The notes: a model not told the origin generated them from the sequence alone. Shown: positions 1,056-34,239, counted from the stretch's first letter. The stretch: 64,000 bases of DNA from Actinobaculum massiliense (GCF_001457435.1 NZ_LN881717.1:195896-259895), one strand, 5' to 3'. Numbers and translations: made by a program.

Positions 1056-1661
1056 GTGACTTTTGATTCCAGCGAGGCCATCGCTCGCCGCTGGGCCAAC
1101 GGCAGCGGGACGCGTATTTATGCCATTGACGGACGCTCGGGGGCCGGCAAGTCAACCCTCGCCCGCAAGATTCGCGAGCAGATAAAAGCGGCGAATCCTT
1201 CTGTTCGAGTGATTCTGATCGAGGTCGAGAACCATATCCCGGGCTGGAGCGGCCTGGTGGACGGCGTTCAAAACATCGCGGATGACATTCTGGAGCCGTT
1301 TCTAGCGAACGGCTACTTTAGCGCTCGCGGCTGGAACTGGTACACCTCGCGGTGGAATCCTCCCCGCCGTCATCCCGCCCGCGGCCGCGCCGAAATCCTG
1401 CTACTCGTTGGGTGCGGATCCACCTCGTTGGCTTGCGCGCCCTACCTGCGCGAAAGCGTGTGGATCGAAGCTCCGAAAGCTGTGCGCCGGGCCCGGGTGA
1501 CCGCGCGCGAAGGCGATCCGGGCGAATGGTGGGAGCTGTGGGCTCGCCAGGAAGAAGCACTCCTAGCCCAGCATCATTCGCCCGCCCAGGCGGATTTTGT
1601 ACTTCCTAGCGCAGAGCTAGCTACTGCCCAAGACGCCGAGCACATCCACAATCGCAACTAG
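1056..1661 (+). CDS. P-loop nucleoside/uridine kinase-like ATP-binding protein
   Basis: A 201-residue protein with a clear Walker A motif, GRSGAGKS at residues 26-33, after a short beta strand (IYAID). This arrangement is typical of uridine-kinase-like P-loop proteins. The substrate cannot be read from the sequence; nucleoside or small-molecule phosphorylation is inference. The GTG start lacks a Shine-Dalgarno sequence, but TAAGCT at 1044-1049 lies six bases upstream, which suggests a leaderless message. The last 45 bases overlap the end of the FKBP lipoprotein gene tail-to-tail. The Arg/Trp-rich stretch around residues 85-105 has no motif I recognise. Confidence 0.7.
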   Translation: MTFDSSEAIARRWANGSGTRIYAIDGRSGAGKSTLARKIREQIKAANPSVRVILIEVENHIPGWSGLVDGVQNIADDILEPFLANGYFSARGWNWYTSRWNPPRRHPARGRAEILLLVGCGSTSLACAPYLRESVWIEAPKAVRRARVTAREGDPGEWWELWARQEEALLAQHHSPAQADFVLPSAELATAQDAEHIHNRN

Positions 1662-2477
1662 ATCATGATCCCCGTTGGCTTTGGCTGCGGGAATCAAAAT
1701 CGCTAACCGGCTCCCCACTTTTTGGTCGCGGATCGAGGTGCGTAAACCCTCCATTAACTCGCTCATCGCTACCCCGCGTGGCCCGCCGTCCATCCAGGTG
1801 GATTCGTAGATCTGGCCTTCCGTGTTGGCGAGTACATACTGCAGGGCAACGGCGTCGTCGCCCCCTACTTGGATTCCTTCACCGGCTACCAGCGGTACCA
1901 CCCGCAACTCAGAAATCGGGCCGCCGCCCTGGGTCAACACCGGGCCGGCACCCTCGCCTTCACCAATTCCCGGCATGCCGTTGCCCGGTTCGGGAACGGG
2001 AAGGCGCTCCCCGCGGGCATTGGTATACAAAATGTCCACCACCGCGATCTCAACCGCGCTGGCGTCACCCGCGATAAGCCCCGGCCGCTCAATAATGAGG
2101 CGAGTGCCCTCGCGCATGCCGGTGACGAACTGGGCTATATCCCCAATCGAATCCGCGGTAGCCTTGCCCAGCCGTACCTGCCCAGTGTCATATTCATGCA
2201 CAGGGGCGTCAGTGCGCGAATCGAAGGAGGTGGCGCGGAATAGAATCGGGCTCCCCGAGGAAATTTCCACCCCGTCGCCGGATGACTCAATGCTCACCCG
2301 AGTATCGGAAAGGCGGGCCTGGCCGGTAGTCGTAATTGAAACCGGAGCGCCGAATCCTCCCTCGATTTTGAGCGACCACTCCTCACCCGCGGCAGAGCAA
2401 CCGGCTAGCGGCAGCAGACCGGCAAGTATCCCCGCCAACGCGAAGTACGCCGTGGCGAGTTTGCGCCCAGGCCTCAT
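1617..2477 (-). CDS. Secreted lipoprotein with two FKBP-type peptidyl-prolyl isomerase-like domains
   Basis: The 286-residue product starts with a lipoprotein signal peptide: positively charged start, hydrophobic core, and lipobox LAGC with the acylated Cys27. It should sit on the outer face of the membrane. Two FKBP-like segments follow (about residues 65-150 and 185-283). Both show the pattern of a beta strand, a phrase like FVTGMREGTRLII or LMEGLRTSIRDQKVGSRL, and a final VVDIL/IVDVLGV strand. Aromatic active-site residues are poorly kept, so isomerase activity is uncertain. The ATG overlaps the pafA stop as ATGA. FKBP genes next to pafA are known in Streptomyces. A direct role in pupylation is unlikely because the protein is extracytoplasmic. 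Confidence 0.75.
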   Translation of the reverse strand: MRPGRKLATAYFALAGILAGLLPLAGCSAAGEEWSLKIEGGFGAPVSITTTGQARLSDTRVSIESSGDGVEISSGSPILFRATSFDSRTDAPVHEYDTGQVRLGKATADSIGDIAQFVTGMREGTRLIIERPGLIAGDASAVEIAVVDILYTNARGERLPVPEPGNGMPGIGEGEGAGPVLTQGGGPISELRVVPLVAGEGIQVGGDDAVALQYVLANTEGQIYESTWMDGGPRGVAMSELMEGLRTSIRDQKVGSRLAILIPAAKANGDHDLVAIVDVLGVLGSS

Positions 2478-3901
2478 CCGAGCTCCGCCATCAGCCGCGC
2501 CGCCACTTCACTTTCGGTTTGCAGCGGCTCATCGAGCACCACGGTGGAGTTACTTTCTGATTCCATCAAACGCAGAGTGCTCCAGTCCACCGCCACATCC
2601 CGGCGCGCCTTGTGGGCTTTGGCAACAAATTCCCCGCGAATCTTCGCCCGGGTGGTTTGCGGGGGCCGGCGAAGTGCCTCGTTAACATCTTCGGGAGCCA
2701 CAATGCGTTTAAGCATGCCGCTTTCTTCCATGCGGTGGCGCAATCCTTCCGGCCCAATATCGTGATAGGCCAGGTCCAGGCGCGCCAAGCGGGAATCTTC
2801 CATCTTGATCCCCGAGCGCTCCACGTAGCGGCGAAGCAGCATAAGCTTTGCGGCCCAGTCGATTTCCTGGCTAATTGCCTCCGGCGCACCGGCCTTCACC
2901 GCTTCTAGAGCGCGAGTCCATAGCTCGAAGAGGTAGCGGCGCACCGGGTCGAGCGCCTGCGTGTAGCCCTTCTTCTCGTAATGGTTGAGGACGGCGTCCC
3001 GGAAACGCTCTTGGATCGCGATCGGATCGGAATAACCGCCTGCCGCCAGCTCCAGGTTGGCGCGGCCGGAAAGATCCGAGGCGGTGATGCGGATGGCATG
3101 CATGGGATCGGCGAGCTCTAGAGATGGCAAAATTGCGCCTTCTTCGAGCATCACCAGCAAGGCTTCGGTAATCGCAACTTTCAGGCCGGTGGTTGGTTCG
3201 GCCACATTCGAATCCCCCACGATAACGTGCATACGGCGGTACTCCTCGGAATTGCCGTGCGGTTCATCGCGGGTGTTAATCATGGGCCGCGACCGCGTGG
3301 ATGCAGAGGAGATAGCGTCCCACATTTGGTGGCTACGCTGGGAAAACTCGTAGCGAACATGGCCGTCTTCGCCGCGGAAAAGGAGGCCCGCGCCGGTCAC
3401 GATCTGGCGGGTGACGAAGAACGGCACCAGCCGCGCGATCCGATCCCGGAAATCGGCGCGGCGATGGAGCATGTAGTTCTCGTGGCAACCGAAAGAGTTG
3501 CCGGCCGCATCCACATTGTTCTTGAACAAGTGGATCACGCCCGGGGTGCCAGCCTTCGCCAGCTTTTTATTGGCCGTTTCCATGAGGCGCGCAAAATAGG
3601 CCTCGCCGGCGCGGTCATTGGCTAGCAGGTCGTAAATCGAATCGCATTCGGCGGTGGCGTACTCGGGGTGTGCCCCGACGTCGAGGTAAAGCCGCGCACC
3701 GTTTTCCAAAAATGTATTAGTGGAGCGGCTACGCTGCATTACCGGCTCAAATAAAAGCTGGGCTGCATCTTCCGGGTCCAGAGGCGGGTTCCCACCCCGC
3801 GTCGAAGCGCACGTGAGGCCGTACTCGGTTTCGATCCCCATCACCCGCCGCGGGAGCATGCTCGTGGCGCTAGTCCCGCGCGCGGCGCTCGAATCGCTCA
3901 C
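2474..3901 (-). CDS. pafA: Pup--protein ligase PafA
   Basis: PafA joins the C-terminal glutamate of Pup to lysines of target proteins using ATP, and belongs to the glutamine synthetase-like/carboxylate-amine ligase fold. The 475-residue length is normal. The N-terminal Mg/ATP motif MGIETEYG is at residues 21-28, and the catalytic aspartate is Asp74 in LYLDVGAHPEYATAE. Further family blocks are NSFGCHENYM and INTRDEPH. I chose the GTG start at 3901 because it overlaps the pup stop as GTGA and an AAGGGCGG site precedes it; the internal ATG at 3859 has no ribosome site. PafA lacks the long insert seen in Dop. The stop overlaps the start of the downstream FKBP lipoprotein. Confidence 0.97.
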   Translation of the reverse strand: MSDSSAARGTSATSMLPRRVMGIETEYGLTCASTRGGNPPLDPEDAAQLLFEPVMQRSRSTNTFLENGARLYLDVGAHPEYATAECDSIYDLLANDRAGEAYFARLMETANKKLAKAGTPGVIHLFKNNVDAAGNSFGCHENYMLHRRADFRDRIARLVPFFVTRQIVTGAGLLFRGEDGHVRYEFSQRSHQMWDAISSASTRSRPMINTRDEPHGNSEEYRRMHVIVGDSNVAEPTTGLKVAITEALLVMLEEGAILPSLELADPMHAIRITASDLSGRANLELAAGGYSDPIAIQERFRDAVLNHYEKKGYTQALDPVRRYLFELWTRALEAVKAGAPEAISQEIDWAAKLMLLRRYVERSGIKMEDSRLARLDLAYHDIGPEGLRHRMEESGMLKRIVAPEDVNEALRRPPQTTRAKIRGEFVAKAHKARRDVAVDWSTLRLMESESNSTVVLDEPLQTESEVAARLMAELG

Positions 3902-4080
3902 TGGCCGCCCTTCTGCACGAAGCCCTGCACGAACGAGGACGCGTTCGTTTCCAGCACGCTGTCAATATCGTCCAGCAGCGCATCGATCTGAAAATCCTGC
4001 GCCTTGGGCTCCACCGTCTCCGTTTCGCTTTGCGTTTGCTCAGCGTGGCGGCGCGGCTGCGCGAATTCTTGCTGCGACAT
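3898..4080 (-). CDS. pup: Prokaryotic ubiquitin-like protein Pup
   Basis: Pup is the small, mostly disordered protein tag of Actinobacteria. This one has 60 residues, is rich in Gln, Glu and Asp, and carries the conserved C-terminal half (FQIDALLDDIDSVLETN, SFVQGFVQKGGQ) that becomes a helix when it binds the ATPase coiled coil or the ligase. It ends in Gly-Gly-Gln, so Dop must deamidate it to Glu before PafA can use it. A strong AAGGAGAAGG site precedes the ATG. An 88-base gap separates it from dop, and it overlaps pafA by four bases. In proteasome-bearing relatives prcB and prcA lie between pup and pafA; here they are absent. Confidence 0.97.
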   Translation of the reverse strand: MSQQEFAQPRRHAEQTQSETETVEPKAQDFQIDALLDDIDSVLETNASSFVQGFVQKGGQ

Positions 4081-4130
4081 AGCCTTCTCCTTTGATTTTG
4101 CTCTTCTTCAGTTCTAACCGTTTTGTGATC

Positions 4131-4148
4131 CCCCGGCTATAACCGGGG
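4131..4148 (-). promoter_or_regulatory. Small GC-rich hairpin between dop and pup
   Basis: CCCCGG (4131-4136) pairs with CCGGGG (4143-4148) around a six-base loop in the 88-base gap between the dop stop and the pup start. It has no T-run behind it on either strand, so it is not a classical terminator. It might act as a processing site or an RNA stabiliser that sets the Pup level apart from Dop. That role is inference. Confidence 0.35.
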
Positions 4149-4168
4149 CTACGCGCGGGCGGGTAGCC

Positions 4169-5755
4169 CTACTCGGCTTTGAGACCCGCAATGACGTCGC
4201 TCATGGTCTCAGACCGTGCAATCAAATCCTCCACCTTTTCCCGGGTCCCGCCACGCGGATCGCGGAGCGGTATGCGAATTAGCTCTTCACCGCCCGGGTC
4301 GACGACGGCGGAGGTCCAGCTCGCGGAGATCACCCGATCGGTAAATTTCCGGATAAGTTGCCCGCGCATATATGCCCGAGTATCTTCCGGCGGGTTGTAT
4401 GCGGCCCAGCTCACTTCGGCGTCGTCAAACAAACGCCTCACCTGGCCCCGGGCGGAAAGCATTCCCACAATCGAGCGCTCGCGGCGCAGGTCGTGCCATT
4501 GCAGGTCGAGGGCGCGGATCGTATCGCTACTCCAGTCCAGGTTGCGCCGCTCGCGCATTTGTTGCAGCAACTGATATTTGCCGATCCATTCCACCTCGGC
4601 GGCGGCGGAGAACATATCCGTGCGGATCTTATCGAGCGTGCCCTGCCACAGGTCGAGAATTTCCGCGGTATCCCAATCCGGGCCGCCGTGCGCGTTCACC
4701 AAATCGCCAATCACATCCAGGTACTGCTGCTGAATGTCGATGGCGGTGCGATCCGGGCCGGAGAACATTTCGATCTTTTGCTTCAGGCTCAGGTCCCGGG
4801 AGACCGCCCAGCTGGCGGGAACCGGCTGGTTAATCAGCGCGGTTTCCAATTCGAGGGGGACCTCGTCTTGTTCCAGCATCCACAAGACCAGCGCGGTGGT
4901 TCCCACCTTCAGCAGAATCGACACGTCGAATTGGTTTGCGTCGCCACCGATCACGTGGAATCGGCGATAGCGGCTCGGCTGCGCGTGTGGTTCGTCGCGG
5001 GTGTTGATAATTGGCCGGTTAAACGTCGTCTCCAACCCCACATCGTTTTCGACATAGTCAGCGCGCTGCGAGATCTGGAATCCCGGCGCGCTGGAGGTTG
5101 GCCCCAGGCCCACACGTCCGGTCCCGCACAAAATCGGGCGGGTGACGAAGAAAGGGGTGAGGTAGCGAATAATCTCGGAAAACTCTACACTCCGCTCCAC
5201 CAGGTAGTTCTCGTGGGAGCCGTAGGCGGCGCCTTTCCCGTCCACATTGTTCTTATATACGACCACGTCCCGGCCCTGGCGCGCCATAATCTCCATTGCT
5301 TCGCGCGCGATCTCCTCACCGGCGCGATCCCAGAGCACCGCCTCGCGCGGATTCGAAACCTCCGGCGAGGAGTACTCCGGGTGAGCATGATCCACGTAGA
5401 GCCGCCCTCCATTGGACAGCACCGCGTTGGAGGCGTGCGGCGCCGCCAGCTCCTCGGTGCTCGGGCGCCGAATGGCCTGCAAATCGAGCCCGCCCGACGG
5501 GGCCAGATGGTCCGGATCATCGGTGAGCATGGACGGATCGGCCGTGGCCCGGTCTAGCCGAAAACCGCGTGCATCATTGAGCGGATCTTCCCCCGTGTAA
5601 TCCCAGCGTACGGCCGGCCCAGCGCCAGAGGCTTTACCCTCTCGCCCGTAAGCGGTGACGATTGCCTCCGAGAGTTCGATTGGGCTGGCGGCGGTATCGG
5701 CAGGTTCGAGAATCCCGAATTCGGTTTCCAAACCCACGATCCTACGAGTGGTCAT
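4169..5755 (-). CDS. dop: Depupylase/deamidase of Pup, Dop
   Basis: Dop converts the C-terminal Gln of Pup to Glu and also removes Pup from tagged proteins. It is a paralogue of PafA. The 528 residues include VGLETEFG at the start, the catalytic Asp122 in LYVDHAHPEYSSPE, NYLVERSVEF, and INTRDEPHAQPSRYRRFHV. Residues about 40-85 form the insertion (Dop loop) that PafA lacks, which separates the two calls. The ATG follows a GGGAGG site. It lies 28 bases after arc and is read in the same direction as arc, pup and pafA, so one operon is likely. Because Pup here ends in GGQ, Dop activity is needed for any pupylation. Confidence 0.97.
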   Translation of the reverse strand: MTTRRIVGLETEFGILEPADTAASPIELSEAIVTAYGREGKASGAGPAVRWDYTGEDPLNDARGFRLDRATADPSMLTDDPDHLAPSGGLDLQAIRRPSTEELAAPHASNAVLSNGGRLYVDHAHPEYSSPEVSNPREAVLWDRAGEEIAREAMEIMARQGRDVVVYKNNVDGKGAAYGSHENYLVERSVEFSEIIRYLTPFFVTRPILCGTGRVGLGPTSSAPGFQISQRADYVENDVGLETTFNRPIINTRDEPHAQPSRYRRFHVIGGDANQFDVSILLKVGTTALVLWMLEQDEVPLELETALINQPVPASWAVSRDLSLKQKIEMFSGPDRTAIDIQQQYLDVIGDLVNAHGGPDWDTAEILDLWQGTLDKIRTDMFSAAAEVEWIGKYQLLQQMRERRNLDWSSDTIRALDLQWHDLRRERSIVGMLSARGQVRRLFDDAEVSWAAYNPPEDTRAYMRGQLIRKFTDRVISASWTSAVVDPGGEELIRIPLRDPRGGTREKVEDLIARSETMSDVIAGLKAE

Positions 5756-5783
5756 TTAGCTTCCTCCCTGAGTAGCTCTCGCC

Positions 5784-7349
5784 TTACAGCGGCCGAATAG
5801 CGACGATCTTTTCGCCGCGAGTACGCCCGTTGACCTTGGCCCATTCTTCCGGATCCGAGATCTGATCGAGTTGCGAGTTTTCGCGTGCCTCGGCCCTCAC
5901 CGCAGCCGAAATATTCGCCCGTGAGATCCCCCGCTCCCCGCTTTGCAGGAACGTCTTAATAGCCAGCTTCTTTACCCGGTCCACGATCCCAGCCAGCATG
6001 GCGCCGGAAACGAAATCGCTAATATAGAGCGTTTCGCGCTGCCCCGAGTTGTAAGTGAGCTCCACGTAGCGCAGTTCATCCGTGCGCGCGAAAAGCTCAT
6101 CGGCCAGTTGCGCGCGAAGTGCCCGAGCCGCCTGGTCGGCGGTCCCGTGGGCAGCAATTTCCGCCGCGCTAAAGGGCAGATCCGCGGTGAGGTACTTCGA
6201 GAGGATCTCCAGCGATCCGGCGTAATCAGGCCGGTCAATCAGGATTTTCACGTCCAGGCGTCCGGGGCGCAGTAGCGCAGGATCAATCATGTCTTCGCGG
6301 TTGGAGGCGCCGATAACGATCACATTGTCCAGTTGCTCCACACCGTCAATTTCCGCCAAAAGCTGGGGCACAATCGTGGTTTCGACGTCAGAAGAAATTC
6401 CCGATCCGCGGGTGCGGAACAGCGCTTCCATCTCATCAAAGAAAATAATGACCGGAATGCCCTGACTGGCACGGTCGCGGGCGCGTGAGAAAATCTCGCG
6501 AATTTGCCGCTCGGTTTCACCCACGTACTTATCGAGCAGTTGGGGGCCTTTGATATTGAGGAAGTACGAGCGCGTGGCCCCCTCCCCATTACGTTCGCCG
6601 GCCAAATGCGAAAGTGAGGTTGCCACCGCCTTCGCGATAAGGGTTTTGCCGTTTCCGGGAGGCCCGTAGAGCAGTACTCCCTTGGGCGGTTTCAGTCCGT
6701 GTTCGCGGTAAAGCTCGGGTTGCTGGAAAGGCAGCTCCACCGAGTCGCGGATTTCTTCGATCTGCCGGCCCAGCCCGCCAATGTCTTCGTAGCTGACGTC
6801 CGGAACTTCTTCCAGCATGAGGTGTTCGACGTCGGGGCGCTCCACCCGTTCAAGGATGAACCCGGAACGCAAATCGGCCAAGTAGGTATCCCCCACCCGG
6901 ATATCGGTACCCATGACGCGCCCGCCCACGCGCAAAATTCGCGTTTCATCCGAGTGGATTTTCGCCAGCACGCGCTGCGTATCCAGCACCAGCTCAATAT
7001 GGACGATCTGGCCTGTATCCTCGTACCCGCCAATGCCCATGACCACCATTTCCTGGTTGAGGCGAACCTCCTGACCGGGTCGAAGCTGCTCAATCGCCAC
7101 GTAGGGCGAGGCGGCAACGTTCATTTTGCGCGATCCCATGAGTACATCGACGGAATGGTCCGCGCTGTGCCCACCAATGAAAGTCGCAAAATTTGCCGGC
7201 GGTTTGGACAGCGAATCGAGTTGATCGCCAAGCTCTTGAATACGCTGACGCGCCCCCACCAGCGAGCGCGACAGCCGCTCATTCTTTTCGCGTAGCGACG
7301 CCAATTCGCTCTCAAGCTCAGCCGCTTTTTGCGAGTCAATTTCGGACAT
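5784..7349 (-). CDS. arc: Pup-binding AAA+ ATPase Arc/Mpa
   Basis: This is the ring ATPase that grips Pup and unfolds pupylated proteins. From the chosen ATG (7349) it has 521 residues: an N-terminal coiled coil (about 6-45), tandem OB-fold region (about 60-185), and a AAA domain with Walker A GPPGNGKT (229-236) and Walker B IIFFDEME. I prefer this ATG over a TTG ten codons upstream because GAGGAAAGG precedes it and the TTG overlaps a TACAAT -10 box. The C-terminus is KIVAIRPL. It lacks the GQYL-type HbYX tail with which Mpa opens the 20S proteasome. This matches the missing prcBA genes; in Corynebacterium, Arc is known to work without a proteasome. Confidence 0.95.
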   Translation of the reverse strand: MSEIDSQKAAELESELASLREKNERLSRSLVGARQRIQELGDQLDSLSKPPANFATFIGGHSADHSVDVLMGSRKMNVAASPYVAIEQLRPGQEVRLNQEMVVMGIGGYEDTGQIVHIELVLDTQRVLAKIHSDETRILRVGGRVMGTDIRVGDTYLADLRSGFILERVERPDVEHLMLEEVPDVSYEDIGGLGRQIEEIRDSVELPFQQPELYREHGLKPPKGVLLYGPPGNGKTLIAKAVATSLSHLAGERNGEGATRSYFLNIKGPQLLDKYVGETERQIREIFSRARDRASQGIPVIIFFDEMEALFRTRGSGISSDVETTIVPQLLAEIDGVEQLDNVIVIGASNREDMIDPALLRPGRLDVKILIDRPDYAGSLEILSKYLTADLPFSAAEIAAHGTADQAARALRAQLADELFARTDELRYVELTYNSGQRETLYISDFVSGAMLAGIVDRVKKLAIKTFLQSGERGISRANISAAVRAEARENSQLDQISDPEEWAKVNGRTRGEKIVAIRPL

Positions 7350-7378: not shown

Positions 7379-7384
7379 ATTGTA
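7379..7384 (-). promoter_or_regulatory. Likely -10 element for the arc-dop-pup-pafA operon
   Basis: TACAAT on the minus strand lies about 30 bases before the arc ATG, in the gap after trmI, and leaves room for a short leader with a ribosome site. No good -35 hexamer is seen at 16-18 bases. It is the best promoter candidate for the pupylation operon. Confidence 0.45.
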
Positions 7385-7477: not shown

Positions 7478-8557
7478 TTAGCGTTCGCGTTGCCGCTCGC
7501 TGGCCTCCGCGTCGCGGCGAGCTAGCCGCTCGTTGGCCTCGGCCTCCAGCCGCTCGGCAATTTTCCGGCCGCGCGGCCCGGGCAGATCGCTGCCCGTTGC
7601 CTCCACGTCCGCCCGATGGGCGACGTCGCGACGCACTTTCCGGAGCTTTTTGGGCGCAATATCGCGCTCCCCAAAGTCTTCAGATGTCCAGCTCGCTCCC
7701 GGAACCGGCTCGGCATACGCCCCCTTGGCGGGCCGGCGCGATTCGCGCAGCGGCTCTGTTCCCGGAGCCAAGCGCCGCGCCCGGCAGAGAAATCCGGTGT
7801 GCCCAATCATCCGGTGATCCGGACGCACCGCCAGACCCTCCGTATGCCAGGTTCGCCGCATGGTTTCGGAGCTTATCGGCTCGGTGAAGCCGCCGGTATC
7901 TTTCACGGTTTCCGCGTACCGCGAGAGCTGAGTGGTGGTGGTGACGTACACGACGACGACGCCGCCCGAGCGCAACGCGCGGCCAATGGCCTCAACGTGA
8001 TCCCAGGGCGCGAGCATATCGAGCACTACGACGTCGAACCATCCCGGCTCGAAGCTATTGAGTACTTCGCTGGCGTCTCCGACGCGCAGATCCCAGTTCG
8101 GCGGCTCCTCGCCCCACCAGGAGGTGACATTGCCCCAGGCAATCTCCGCAAAATCGGCGCGCTGTTCGGCGGAGATTAGCTGCCCTTGCGCGCCGGCCGC
8201 CTGCAGAAGCGAAATGGAGAGCGCCCCCGAGCCGGCGCCGGCTTCAAATACCCGCGCGCCGGGGAAAATATCCGCTTCCTCGATAATCTGCCCGGCGTCT
8301 TTGGGGTAGACCACCGTTGCTCCGCGAGGCATAGAAAGAACGTAATCGGAAAGTAACGGGCGCAGCGCTAGGAACCTGTGACCCGACTCGGATGCAATCG
8401 TGCTCCCTTCGGGGAGACCTATCAGCTCATCATGGCGAATATTGCCGCGAGTGGACTGGAAATATCCGTCGCGCGTAAGAGAAATTGTGTAGTGGCGGCC
8501 TTTGTAGTCGGTTAATTGCACCCGCTCACCGGGGCGAAAGGGACCTCTTCTATGCAT
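7478..8557 (-). CDS. trmI: tRNA (adenine(58)-N1)-methyltransferase TrmI
   Basis: TrmI methylates A58 in the T-loop of tRNAs using S-adenosylmethionine. The 359-residue protein has the small N-terminal barrel (GPFRPGERVQLTD, GRHYTISL) and a Rossmann methyltransferase domain with motif I EAGAGSGALS near residue 107. It continues with PGWFDVVVLDM and VVVYVTTTTQ. The last 80 residues are a charged, Arg/Glu/Ala-rich tail longer than usual. The ATG has no Shine-Dalgarno sequence, but TAAACT (8565-8570) sits seven bases upstream, so a leaderless message is likely. trmI just upstream of arc/mpa is also the mycobacterial order. Confidence 0.9.
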   Translation of the reverse strand: MHRRGPFRPGERVQLTDYKGRHYTISLTRDGYFQSTRGNIRHDELIGLPEGSTIASESGHRFLALRPLLSDYVLSMPRGATVVYPKDAGQIIEEADIFPGARVFEAGAGSGALSISLLQAAGAQGQLISAEQRADFAEIAWGNVTSWWGEEPPNWDLRVGDASEVLNSFEPGWFDVVVLDMLAPWDHVEAIGRALRSGGVVVVYVTTTTQLSRYAETVKDTGGFTEPISSETMRRTWHTEGLAVRPDHRMIGHTGFLCRARRLAPGTEPLRESRRPAKGAYAEPVPGASWTSEDFGERDIAPKKLRKVRRDVAHRADVEATGSDLPGPRGRKIAERLEAEANERLARRDAEASERQRER

Positions 8558-30492: not shown

Positions 30493-33400
30493 TCAGCGGC
30501 GATCAACGGCCGGCGTGTCCACGCCGTCGCCGTTCCAATCCCCCACGTAGGACGAATCGGTGCTATCACCATAGTAGACAACGCTTTGCGCCACGCCCGT
30601 CTCCAGCGCATTGCGCAAATGGAAGGCGTTGCCGCGAATCACCGCAATGCCGTCGATGCCGTCTCCATTCCAGTCTCCGGCGACCACGCGATCTCCCGTC
30701 GTACCGTACTGTAAGACGGTGGGCGCCTTGGTCTGGGAGAGGTCAGCCTGCAGGTAAACAGTGTTTCCGCGTACCGCCGCGAGCTCAGAAGCCGCATCGG
30801 CGTCGAAGTTGCCGGCGATAAGCTGGTCGGGGGGATTGCCGTAGCTAATCTCCCGGTCGGCGACGCCGCTACTCAGCGACTGCCGCATTAGCACCCGATT
30901 GCCGCGGACAACCGCGAGGGTATCGACTCCGTCGCCGTCCCAATCACCAACCAGCACCTCGTCGCCCGCGTTGCCGTAGCAGAACTCAAACCGGGCTACG
31001 CCGGTGAAGGCGTTTGTACCGAGGAAGTGGTTGCCGCGGCGCACCATTGGGGTGGAGACGCCGTCGCCGTTCCAATCACCAAAGAGGAGCTCATCGCTCG
31101 GGTTACCGTAGTTGATCACTCGGTTAGCGGCCGGCTGACCCCACGCATCGGCGTAGAAGATGCCGCGGTTCGGTTGCGGCTCTTGGCTGGGCTCCTCGCT
31201 CGGATCGCCGCCAGGCTGCTCGGCCTTGGCCGTTCGCAACACCGTTGCCGAAAGAGCGGAAGCCTCGTAGCCCTCTGTGCCAACACTTACCCGCGCGGGC
31301 TTTTCCGCGCTGACCTTGCCGTCAGCAACGAGCACCTCGTAGTCACCCGCGGCGATATCCGCGACCTTTGCGGGCGCTTCGTTGGCATTGAGAATCACCA
31401 CGTAGGTATCTTCGCCGTCGGTCACCCGGTAGGCGACGACGCCGTCGCGAGCCTGAACAACCGAAGCAGTCCGGAAAATCGCTTCATTGGTCGGCTTGCG
31501 CAAAGCCGGGGTGGCCTTACGAAGCTCGATAAGGCCGCGCGTGTAGGCCACCGCATCCGCCTGTTCCACGGTTCGATCCCAATCAATCGCGTTGACCGCG
31601 TCGCCGGAACGATACGAATTTTCGTCGCCACCCTTGGTGCGCAAGAATTCTTGGCCCATTTGCTGGGCCGGAATGCCCTGCGCCAGGTAAACGGCTGAGG
31701 TAGCCAGCTTTGCCCGCGCCAAGCGCGTGGCTTCAGAGTCCTCTGGACGGGAGGCCTTTAGCTTGTCGTACAGCGTCAGATTGTCGTGGATTTCCACGTA
31801 ATTGACGATTTGCCCCGGACCGGCGTAATGCGTCTGGTCATTACCATTGGTGCACGGCGCCAAACCCTCGGAGTTCTGGCAGGCCAGCAGGTTATTGGCG
31901 ATCAAGGTTTCCAGCCCCGGCTTGCCCGAAACAAATCCGGTATCCGACTCGTTGAAAACCGAACCCTTCAGTCCGTCACGAATCGAGTCATTGAAGAATG
32001 CCAGGCCATTGTCTCCCAGGCGGGGTGCCACGCGGTAGGCGTTCGGCTGGATCATCATGTCGCGCTTCGGAAGGGTGGTATTCATATCCCAACCCTCGCC
32101 CAGCAAGATAATCGACGGATCGATCTTGTTGAGGGCGGTACGCACCTGGCGCATCGTTTCGATGTCGTGCAGACCCATGAGGTCAAAACGGAAACCGTCG
32201 AGGTTGTACTCGCTGGCCCAGTAGGTCACCGAATCGACGACGTACTTGCGCATCATCGCCCGCTCCGAGGCGGTATCATTGCCGACTCCGGAGTTATTGA
32301 CCAGGCTTCCTTCGCTGTTGTAACGGAAGAAGTAACCTGGGACCGTCTGGTTGAAGGCGTGCGAGGCGGCGTCGTACACGTGGTTGTAGACGACGTCCAT
32401 AATCACGCGCAGGTTTGCGCCGTGCAGGCCGGCCACCATCTGCTTGGCTTCCGCCACGCGCGCCGCCGGATCATACGGGTCGGAGGAATACGAGCCCTCC
32501 GGCACGTTGTAGTTCACCGGATCGTAGCCCCAGTTTTGCTGGGCACCGTAGGCCAGGCTGGCGGTCTCGTCGACCGAGCCGTAGTCGTACATCGGCATGA
32601 TTTGCACGTGCGTGACGCCAAGTTGCTTCAAATATTCAAGCCCGGAGACCGCGCCTTTTTCGGTGCGAGTTCCTTCTTCGACGACGCCGAGAAACTTTCC
32701 GCGCTTTTCCGGGGAGATGCCGGAGTGGGGATCAATGGAAAAATCACGCACGTTCATTTCCGCGATCGATGCATTCGTGGCCGGGCCGAAGGCTGGCATA
32801 CGCTCGCCGGCAGCGCCCGACGCCGAACTTTCGGGCGAAAGAATAACCGACCGTTTGCCGTTGGCTACCGCGGCCTTGGCGTAAGGATCAGGAGATTCAT
32901 TCGTGGTGCCGTTGGCGAAGCTGACGCTGAAATCGTAAGCGGTCAGGTTCCGTTCACCGGGCAAAACCGCGCTCCAAACGCCCTTTTCGCCGCGTTCCAT
33001 AGCAACGCTCGAGTCAAGCGGGGCGGTGGGGTTGGCATTGGAGTAAACGTTGACCTTTACCTCGCTGGCGGTAGGCGCCCACAGCTTCAGTTCGGTCTGT
33101 TCCGGAGCATACTTTGCGCCCAGTTCCCCCTCGTAGGCGTAGGCGGCGTCGAACTCGGGTGTGCGCACAACGCTCCCCGCGCTCGCCACTGCCCCGCCGT
33201 ATTCGCCCGCTTTTACCTGGTAGGCACGGCTGAGATCGAGTGGCTGGGCTACCTCGATGCGCAGTTTGCCCTCAGTGAATTTAACGCTGGTTACTTCGGC
33301 GCCCTCAACCTTCACGGACTCCTTGGAGAAGGCAGTAGCTGGGACGTTGCCCCGCACCGTTGCCGTAATTGCAGAAAGCTCGGAAATCTCCGCGCCAATA

Positions 33401-34239
33401 ATTCCCGTCTTGGTGGGAACCACGGTCGGATTTGTGTACACCTGCGCGTCCTTTGCCATAATCCAAATCTCCGTGCTTGCCGCGGAATCGTCTTTCATGG
33501 TGATTGCCGACTGCGGAATCACCCGATCTCCATCTCCAGGATCCTTCGCGCTCCAGGCATCTCCGCCTTGACGCACGATGAACTTCGGGGTGTGAATACC
33601 GCTCTCCGACTTCAGCTGGTAAGTTGCCACCTTTCCGAAGCTATCCTGGCCTGTAAACGCAACCGCGCTCCCCTGACCGTCGTCGACCCAGGTCCATAGA
33701 TCCCAGCCCTCATAATCGCCGGCCGGGCGCAGGTAATGGACCGTTACGTCAAGGACCTTCGGAATTTTCGCGAACTGCTCGGGCGGCCGGGTTGCCGTCT
33801 CTTCGCTACCGGCCTGGATCCAGACCTCTGCCGTTCCCGAGGATGCATCAAGCATCCGGTCTCCGCCGTCCTTATTCCACTGCTCGGTGGTAATAATTGC
33901 CCCGAGCTTACCGGGAGCGTAGGCGCCGGGAACCTTCAGATCGAGGACCTTCCCGAAAGCATCTTCGCCGGTAAAGGCGTAGTGCTTCCCTGCTAAATCC
34001 TTCCCGTCCTGGTCCGTTCCCCACAGATAGACTCCGCGGGATTGATCCGCCTCGCCTTTCGGGGCGTAGTGAATAACTACTCGGGTAGTTGCACTAGCGG
34101 ATTCCTGAGCCAGTTTCGCCGCGGAATCTGCCTGCGCCAGCGGGGAAACGCCAGCCACACAGATGGAAATAACCAATGCGAAAACGGCGAAAAGCCCCAC
34201 CATCGCCCGATTCTTATTCCTGAATCTGAATTGAGTCAT
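30493..34239 (-). CDS. Secreted multidomain pullulanase (GH13) with CBM41 pair and FG-GAP-like C-terminal repeats
   Basis: The 1248-residue protein begins with a signal peptide (hydrophobic residues 13-34, likely cut after AQA near 37). Two CBM41 starch-binding modules follow (about 52-150 and 165-285; e.g. DYEGWDLWTWVDDGQG), then an Ig-like part, a CBM48 (about 375-465) and a GH13 barrel (about 490-990). Catalytic residues: nucleophile Asp686 in GFRFDLMG, acid Glu715 in LLGEGWD, Asp819 in EIHDN. It should cleave alpha-1,6 links in pullulan or glycogen outside the cell. The last ~220 residues hold five FG-GAP/VCBS-like repeats with GDWNGDGVDT-type loops. There is no LPXTG or membrane anchor. 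AGGTTAGGAAA precedes the ATG. Confidence 0.94.
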   Translation of the reverse strand: MTQFRFRNKNRAMVGLFAVFALVISICVAGVSPLAQADSAAKLAQESASATTRVVIHYAPKGEADQSRGVYLWGTDQDGKDLAGKHYAFTGEDAFGKVLDLKVPGAYAPGKLGAIITTEQWNKDGGDRMLDASSGTAEVWIQAGSEETATRPPEQFAKIPKVLDVTVHYLRPAGDYEGWDLWTWVDDGQGSAVAFTGQDSFGKVATYQLKSESGIHTPKFIVRQGGDAWSAKDPGDGDRVIPQSAITMKDDSAASTEIWIMAKDAQVYTNPTVVPTKTGIIGAEISELSAITATVRGNVPATAFSKESVKVEGAEVTSVKFTEGKLRIEVAQPLDLSRAYQVKAGEYGGAVASAGSVVRTPEFDAAYAYEGELGAKYAPEQTELKLWAPTASEVKVNVYSNANPTAPLDSSVAMERGEKGVWSAVLPGERNLTAYDFSVSFANGTTNESPDPYAKAAVANGKRSVILSPESSASGAAGERMPAFGPATNASIAEMNVRDFSIDPHSGISPEKRGKFLGVVEEGTRTEKGAVSGLEYLKQLGVTHVQIMPMYDYGSVDETASLAYGAQQNWGYDPVNYNVPEGSYSSDPYDPAARVAEAKQMVAGLHGANLRVIMDVVYNHVYDAASHAFNQTVPGYFFRYNSEGSLVNNSGVGNDTASERAMMRKYVVDSVTYWASEYNLDGFRFDLMGLHDIETMRQVRTALNKIDPSIILLGEGWDMNTTLPKRDMMIQPNAYRVAPRLGDNGLAFFNDSIRDGLKGSVFNESDTGFVSGKPGLETLIANNLLACQNSEGLAPCTNGNDQTHYAGPGQIVNYVEIHDNLTLYDKLKASRPEDSEATRLARAKLATSAVYLAQGIPAQQMGQEFLRTKGGDENSYRSGDAVNAIDWDRTVEQADAVAYTRGLIELRKATPALRKPTNEAIFRTASVVQARDGVVAYRVTDGEDTYVVILNANEAPAKVADIAAGDYEVLVADGKVSAEKPARVSVGTEGYEASALSATVLRTAKAEQPGGDPSEEPSQEPQPNRGIFYADAWGQPAANRVINYGNPSDELLFGDWNGDGVSTPMVRRGNHFLGTNAFTGVARFEFCYGNAGDEVLVGDWDGDGVDTLAVVRGNRVLMRQSLSSGVADREISYGNPPDQLIAGNFDADAASELAAVRGNTVYLQADLSQTKAPTVLQYGTTGDRVVAGDWNGDGIDGIAVIRGNAFHLRNALETGVAQSVVYYGDSTDSSYVGDWNGDGVDTPAVDRR

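Follow-up and report, generated by a model that had tools for sequence, protein, structure and literature searches.

Two divergent pupylation operons in an Actinobaculum massiliense genome without proteasome genes

The DNA considered here, referred to as the window, is a stretch of 64,000 nucleotides from Actinobaculum massiliense that carries a compact pupylation operon on its minus strand (Table 1). The genes arc, dop, pup and pafA lie head to tail, with 28 bases between arc and dop, 88 bases between dop and pup, and an overlap of the pup stop and the pafA start in GTGA (3898-3901). This arrangement, and the absence of prcB and prcA from between pup and pafA, are as a preliminary description of the sequence had reported. 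Each of the four proteins is named by an NCBIfam equivalog model at a score above the curated cut-off.

Arc consists of two OB domains and an AAA domain, and its start has been placed at the ATG at 7349, with an upstream TTG at 7379 as a possible alternative. In alignment, PafA keeps GIETEYG, the catalytic Asp within YLDVGAHPE, and NTRDEPH, and lacks the Dop-loop, the element that separates depupylase from ligase (PMC7947786); the solved structure nearest to it is that of Corynebacterium glutamicum PafA (4b0t/4bjr). The window Dop likewise has GxExE and the catalytic Asp, and its Dop-loop aligns as RWDYTGEDPLNDARGF. As the window Pup ends in GGQ, it would need to be deamidated ahead of ligation. 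The lipoprotein gene is probably co-transcribed with pafA, as part of the operon, because the two overlap by four bases. Its FKBP_C match is weak (E=0.017, under the Pfam cut-off), and FKBP genes are found near or after pafA in other actinobacteria (PMC2588565). Elsewhere in the window, 30493-34239 encodes a secreted-looking protein of 1248 aa that, judged by eye, is apparently pullulanase-like.

Table 1. Genes of the two pupylation operons and associated features; positions are those of the window unless a locus or contig is given
Feature	Position	Strand	Description
Lipoprotein	1617..2477	minus	Degenerate FKBP-like C-terminal region; overlaps pafA by four bases
pafA (operon 1)	2474..3901	minus	Pup ligase, 475 aa; TIGR03686 564 bits (cut-off 551); PF03136
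pup (operon 1)	3898..4080	minus	Pup, 60 aa; C-terminus VQKGGQ; PF05639 over cut-off; TIGR03687 61 bits (cut-off 41)
dop (operon 1)	4169..5755	minus	Pup deamidase/depupylase, 528 aa; TIGR03688 582 bits (cut-off 492)
arc/mpa (operon 1)	5784..7349	minus	AAA ring ATPase, 521 aa from ATG; TIGR03689 697 bits (cut-off 505)
trmI-type gene	7478..8557	minus	tRNA methyltransferase; PF14801, PF08704; upstream of arc, context only
arc2-dop2-pup2-pafA2 (operon 2)	L131:6850-11937 (G000:C4:42850-47937)		Complete operon with overlaps of one or four bases between its genes; Arc2 561 aa, Dop2 571 aa, Pup2 61 aa ending GGE, PafA2 501 aa
pup2 (second Pup hit, within operon 2)	G000:C4:46262-46429		Same 1.62 Mb contig as the window operon
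Orphan PafA-like gene	L235:9186-10820 (G000:C3:152186-153820)	minus	544 aa; other contig, beside dnaE
Ferritin-family gene	C3:37415-37831

The whole-genome search for prcA and prcB that had been proposed on the strength of the window was run with PF00227, a Pfam family that takes in HslV as well as the core subunits of the proteasome. It was negative: there are no matches in the 2.07 Mb genome (four contigs, 98.3% complete), so that no prcA or prcB turned up elsewhere, and none in 213 genomes of the same family. Within the order, the same search was positive for 144 of 248 genomes, and therefore works on relatives; a proteasome hidden elsewhere in the genome is rejected on the two negative results. 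Among named relatives, the space from pup to pafA is occupied by prcB-prcA in Cellulomonas, Isoptericola, Oerskovia and others, and is without them in Actinobaculum, Trueperella, Arcanobacterium, Schaalia, Actinotignum and Georgenia, with the named Actinomycetaceae that were checked sharing the operon layout of the window.

At the C-terminus of Arc, the docking tail GQYL is found in 51 of 52 operons that contain prcBA and in none of the 82 that lack them; the window Arc, which ends in ...KIVAIRPL, is without it. In Georgenia, one of the genera lacking prcBA, Arc ends in AAGYL or AGGYL, apparently GQYL in decay, and this resemblance suggests that the proteasome was lost secondarily. Another genome, G372 (L187:4585-9783), has a gap of ~3.4 kb between dop and pup and an Arc that ends in RDYL, perhaps an intermediate of motif loss. 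Retention of the ATPase without the docking motif has been described in proteasome-less actinobacteria (Barandun et al. 2012, PMC3511204).

Pupylation without a proteasome is therefore supported by the absence of PF00227 from this genome and from 213 genomes of the family, by the loss of GQYL, and by the layout shared among Actinomycetaceae. To this extent the preliminary description, which correctly gave Corynebacterium as the precedent (PMC3511204, PMC8223512), had read the locus well, but its account was incomplete, since a second operon and an orphan PafA-like gene lie outside the window. The question it raised, of what the tagged proteins are used for, now concerns two systems rather than one.

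Two hits came from a Pup search of the whole genome; the second lies ~150 kb from the window operon, within a complete operon of its own (Table 1). The reading frames of both operons are intact. Identity between the two is 49% for Arc, 42% for Dop, 46% for Pup and 37% for PafA, and with copies just 36-49% identical, a recent tandem or segmental duplication is ruled out as the source. Arc2 (TIGR03689, 676 bits) and Pup2 (TIGR03687, 52 bits) are over cut-off. PafA2 (365 bits, against 551) and Dop2 (452 bits, against 492) fall under the NCBIfam equivalog cut-offs, and their exact activities could consequently have shifted. Both match PF03136 far over its cut-off, and the alignment shows GxExE, NTRDEPH and the catalytic Asp retained in both, with a Dop-loop in Dop2 and none in PafA2. 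In the orphan PafA-like protein NTRDEPH is replaced by AERDEPL in the alignment, and no Pup hit was found near its locus.

Two Pup matches occur in about 48 of the 213 family genomes (our own count from the search table). Outside the family, the order sample contains two Pup matches only in two fragmented assemblies, and among 395 genomes sampled across the class this genome alone has two. The idea that double systems arise after every proteasome loss is unsupported, as the order-level searches include other genomes with a single Pup and no PF00227, and the class sample shows one double. At least three types can be told apart among the extra operons. Type 2 was seen in this genome and at 13 further examined loci, and type 3 occurs mostly in a single genus (group g3), as a rule at one shared site, adjoining a conserved valine-tRNA ligase-like gene. 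A further type is represented by L193 and L204, and the orphan PafA-like protein groups there in the PafA tree.

In Arc, PafA and joint trees, which come from quick searches with support by SH-aLRT only, the extra types (2-4) form one clade (SH-aLRT 98, 96 and 100, respectively). This clade nests inside the proteasome-free group in all three, and the AU test rejects a tree in which the extra types lie outside the group (p-AU 0.00145). From this placement and the AU rejection, it is most likely that copying of the operon postdates proteasome loss. The deepest node among the type 1 operons of Actinomycetaceae has a support of 6 (nil), so the duplication may precede or follow the first split in the family.

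It is somewhat unlikely that operon 2 instead arrived recently from outside the family, as the passenger of a mobile element. Such an import would fit the patchy spread of type 2 across genera, the neighbouring genes that vary from locus to locus, and the single Pup match in G248, a genome of the same genus. However, the AU test rejects an origin outside the proteasome-free group, and the GC content of operon 2 (0.587) matches that of its flanks (0.575). A plasmid origin is also rejected, with only two plasmid records matching, at 29-34% identity, and none found above 35%. For the old duplicate that we prefer, gene loss and within-family transfer could both explain the patchy spread.

Five type 3 loci (L132, L181, L198, L199 and L202) have arc, pup and pafA and are without dop, with at least three independent losses of dop3 on the tree. 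It might be expected that dop-less operons would carry a Pup ending in GGE, but this proved false, with all five keeping GGQ. A GGQ-ended Pup cannot be ligated before deamidation (PMC3511204), and the loss of dop3 alongside a GGQ-ended Pup3 thus implies help from the Dop of the first operon. In at least one of these dop-less type 3 genomes, G151, the type 1 operon (L135) does include dop. The simplest reading would be that Dop1 serves both tags in such genomes. Over the last 32 residues of Pup, mean identity is 0.74-0.88 within types and 0.56-0.62 between them, and these type-specific tail residues suggest that each Pup may co-evolve with its own enzymes.

The window operon probably encodes a working, proteasome-free pupylation system in which tagging serves as a reversible switch, and which was later copied, so that two circuits coexist. 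Loss of the proteasome would be ancient, dating back to an ancestor of the Actinomycetaceae. Going by homology, Dop would convert Pup-GGQ to Pup-GGE by deamidation, PafA would attach Pup to lysines of its targets, and the Arc ring would bind Pup and pull the target apart at the expense of ATP. Dop would then strip the tag, allowing the target to refold or reassemble. The tag would act as a switch that reversibly unfolds, disassembles or inactivates a protein, rather than as a death mark. Unfolding of targets without degradation is suggested by the missing proteasome, the lost docking tail, and the precedent of C. glutamicum, in which pupylation has been proposed to free iron from ferritin without degradation (PMC8223512). 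As a ferritin-family gene is present here (Table 1), iron release from ferritin is possible in this organism also.

After proteasome loss, the whole arc-dop-pup-pafA unit would have been copied and would have diverged within the lineage, leaving this genome with the original and with a type 2 copy, whose Pup-GGE would be ready-made, as two partly separate circuits. Regarding the putative targets and the presumed division of labour between the operons, the leading ideas are that the two systems are retained for different targets or for different conditions. A wider proposal, which we advance tentatively, is that one family, having lost its proteasome, may have built parallel, type-specific tagging circuits. 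A Pup, a ligase and an unfolding ring would be particular to each circuit, one Dop would be partly shared, and the circuits would serve as reversible switches for different targets. If true, bacteria would here provide a case in which a ubiquitin-like tag has diversified into several.

Alternatively, Arc might pass tagged proteins to another protease, such as a ClpP- or FtsH-type peptidase, so that degradation persists. Arc has been retained in the complete operons compared despite proteasome loss, which is consistent with this idea, but the docking tail is gone and no alternative conserved C-terminal docking motif was seen across the Arcs of operons lacking prcBA. Furthermore, there is no protease gene in or beside the window operon, and none was seen to be shared beside the type 2 operons; we consider this handover unlikely. 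A different suggestion is that tagging alone alters the activity or location of targets, with Arc unrelated or limited to the stripping of complexes, and with unfolding not needed. The type 3 operons that persist without their own dop lend this some credence, since a fast tag-and-release cycle would not always be encoded on the spot; nevertheless, the complete operons under comparison keep arc alongside pup and pafA, and tagging of this kind is decidedly improbable. That the operons are decaying, functionless leftovers is barely credible: the proteasome is gone, no PF10759 match for Bpa was found here (in a search that scored no control genome over cut-off either), and a PafA match is missing from six family genomes (one an 85% complete assembly), but Pup is over the family cut-off in 206 of 213 family genomes, about 48 hold a second Pup, and both operons have intact frames and catalytic residues.

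Several systems already described come close to the one found here. The window operon has the features of the Corynebacterium type, being a contiguous arc-dop-pup-pafA without prcBA in a proteasome-less genome, and it shares with C. glutamicum the position of pup directly before pafA and an ATPase without the docking motif (PMC3511204, PMC8223512). It differs in that this genome has two operons and an orphan PafA-like gene; any ferritin link here would be carried over from work on Corynebacterium. Operon 1 has orthologues of the tagging enzymes, the Pup and the ring ATPase of the Pup-proteasome systems of mycobacteria and Streptomyces, whereas prcA, prcB and the Arc docking tail are absent here. 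Leptospirillum ferrooxidans L1/L2 likewise has two whole divergent copies in one genome (Barandun et al. 2012, PMC3511204), and organisms with PupQ and PupE together have been described (PMC3511204), to which this genome, with its GGQ and GGE forms, can be added. Leptospirillum lies outside the Actinobacteria, and leptospirilli have been treated as carrying proteasome subunit genes (PMC3511204); in contrast, the copies described here most likely arose after proteasome loss, fall into at least three types, and in some cases lack dop.

Taken by itself, the window operon is unremarkable, since pupylation without a proteasome has been described before; a second, divergent and complete operon is less usual. 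Surveys of the canonical locus overlook second copies, and in the open-licence literature we found no report of second pupylation systems in Actinomyces, or of duplicated whole systems in proteasome-free bacteria. The role of pupylation without a proteasome has long been a question, with evidence mostly from C. glutamicum. Double divergent systems, natural losses of dop, and the combination of PupQ with PupE provide natural experiments, opening the questions of whether each ligase chooses its own Pup and targets, whether one Dop can serve two tags, and what Arc does without its docking tail.

A conserved partner gene for the type 2 operons was sought among their neighbours; none is common to most loci, and only this genome (G000) and G364 share the four nearby genes named next. 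At two distant type 2 loci (L131:12033-19979 and L184:8459-18294), the operon is adjoined by genes for a TetR-like regulator, an MFS symporter and an EamA-type transporter, together with an amidinotransferase-like gene. At the L131 locus of this genome, these are followed by genes for carbamate kinase, ornithine carbamoyltransferase and arginine deiminase.
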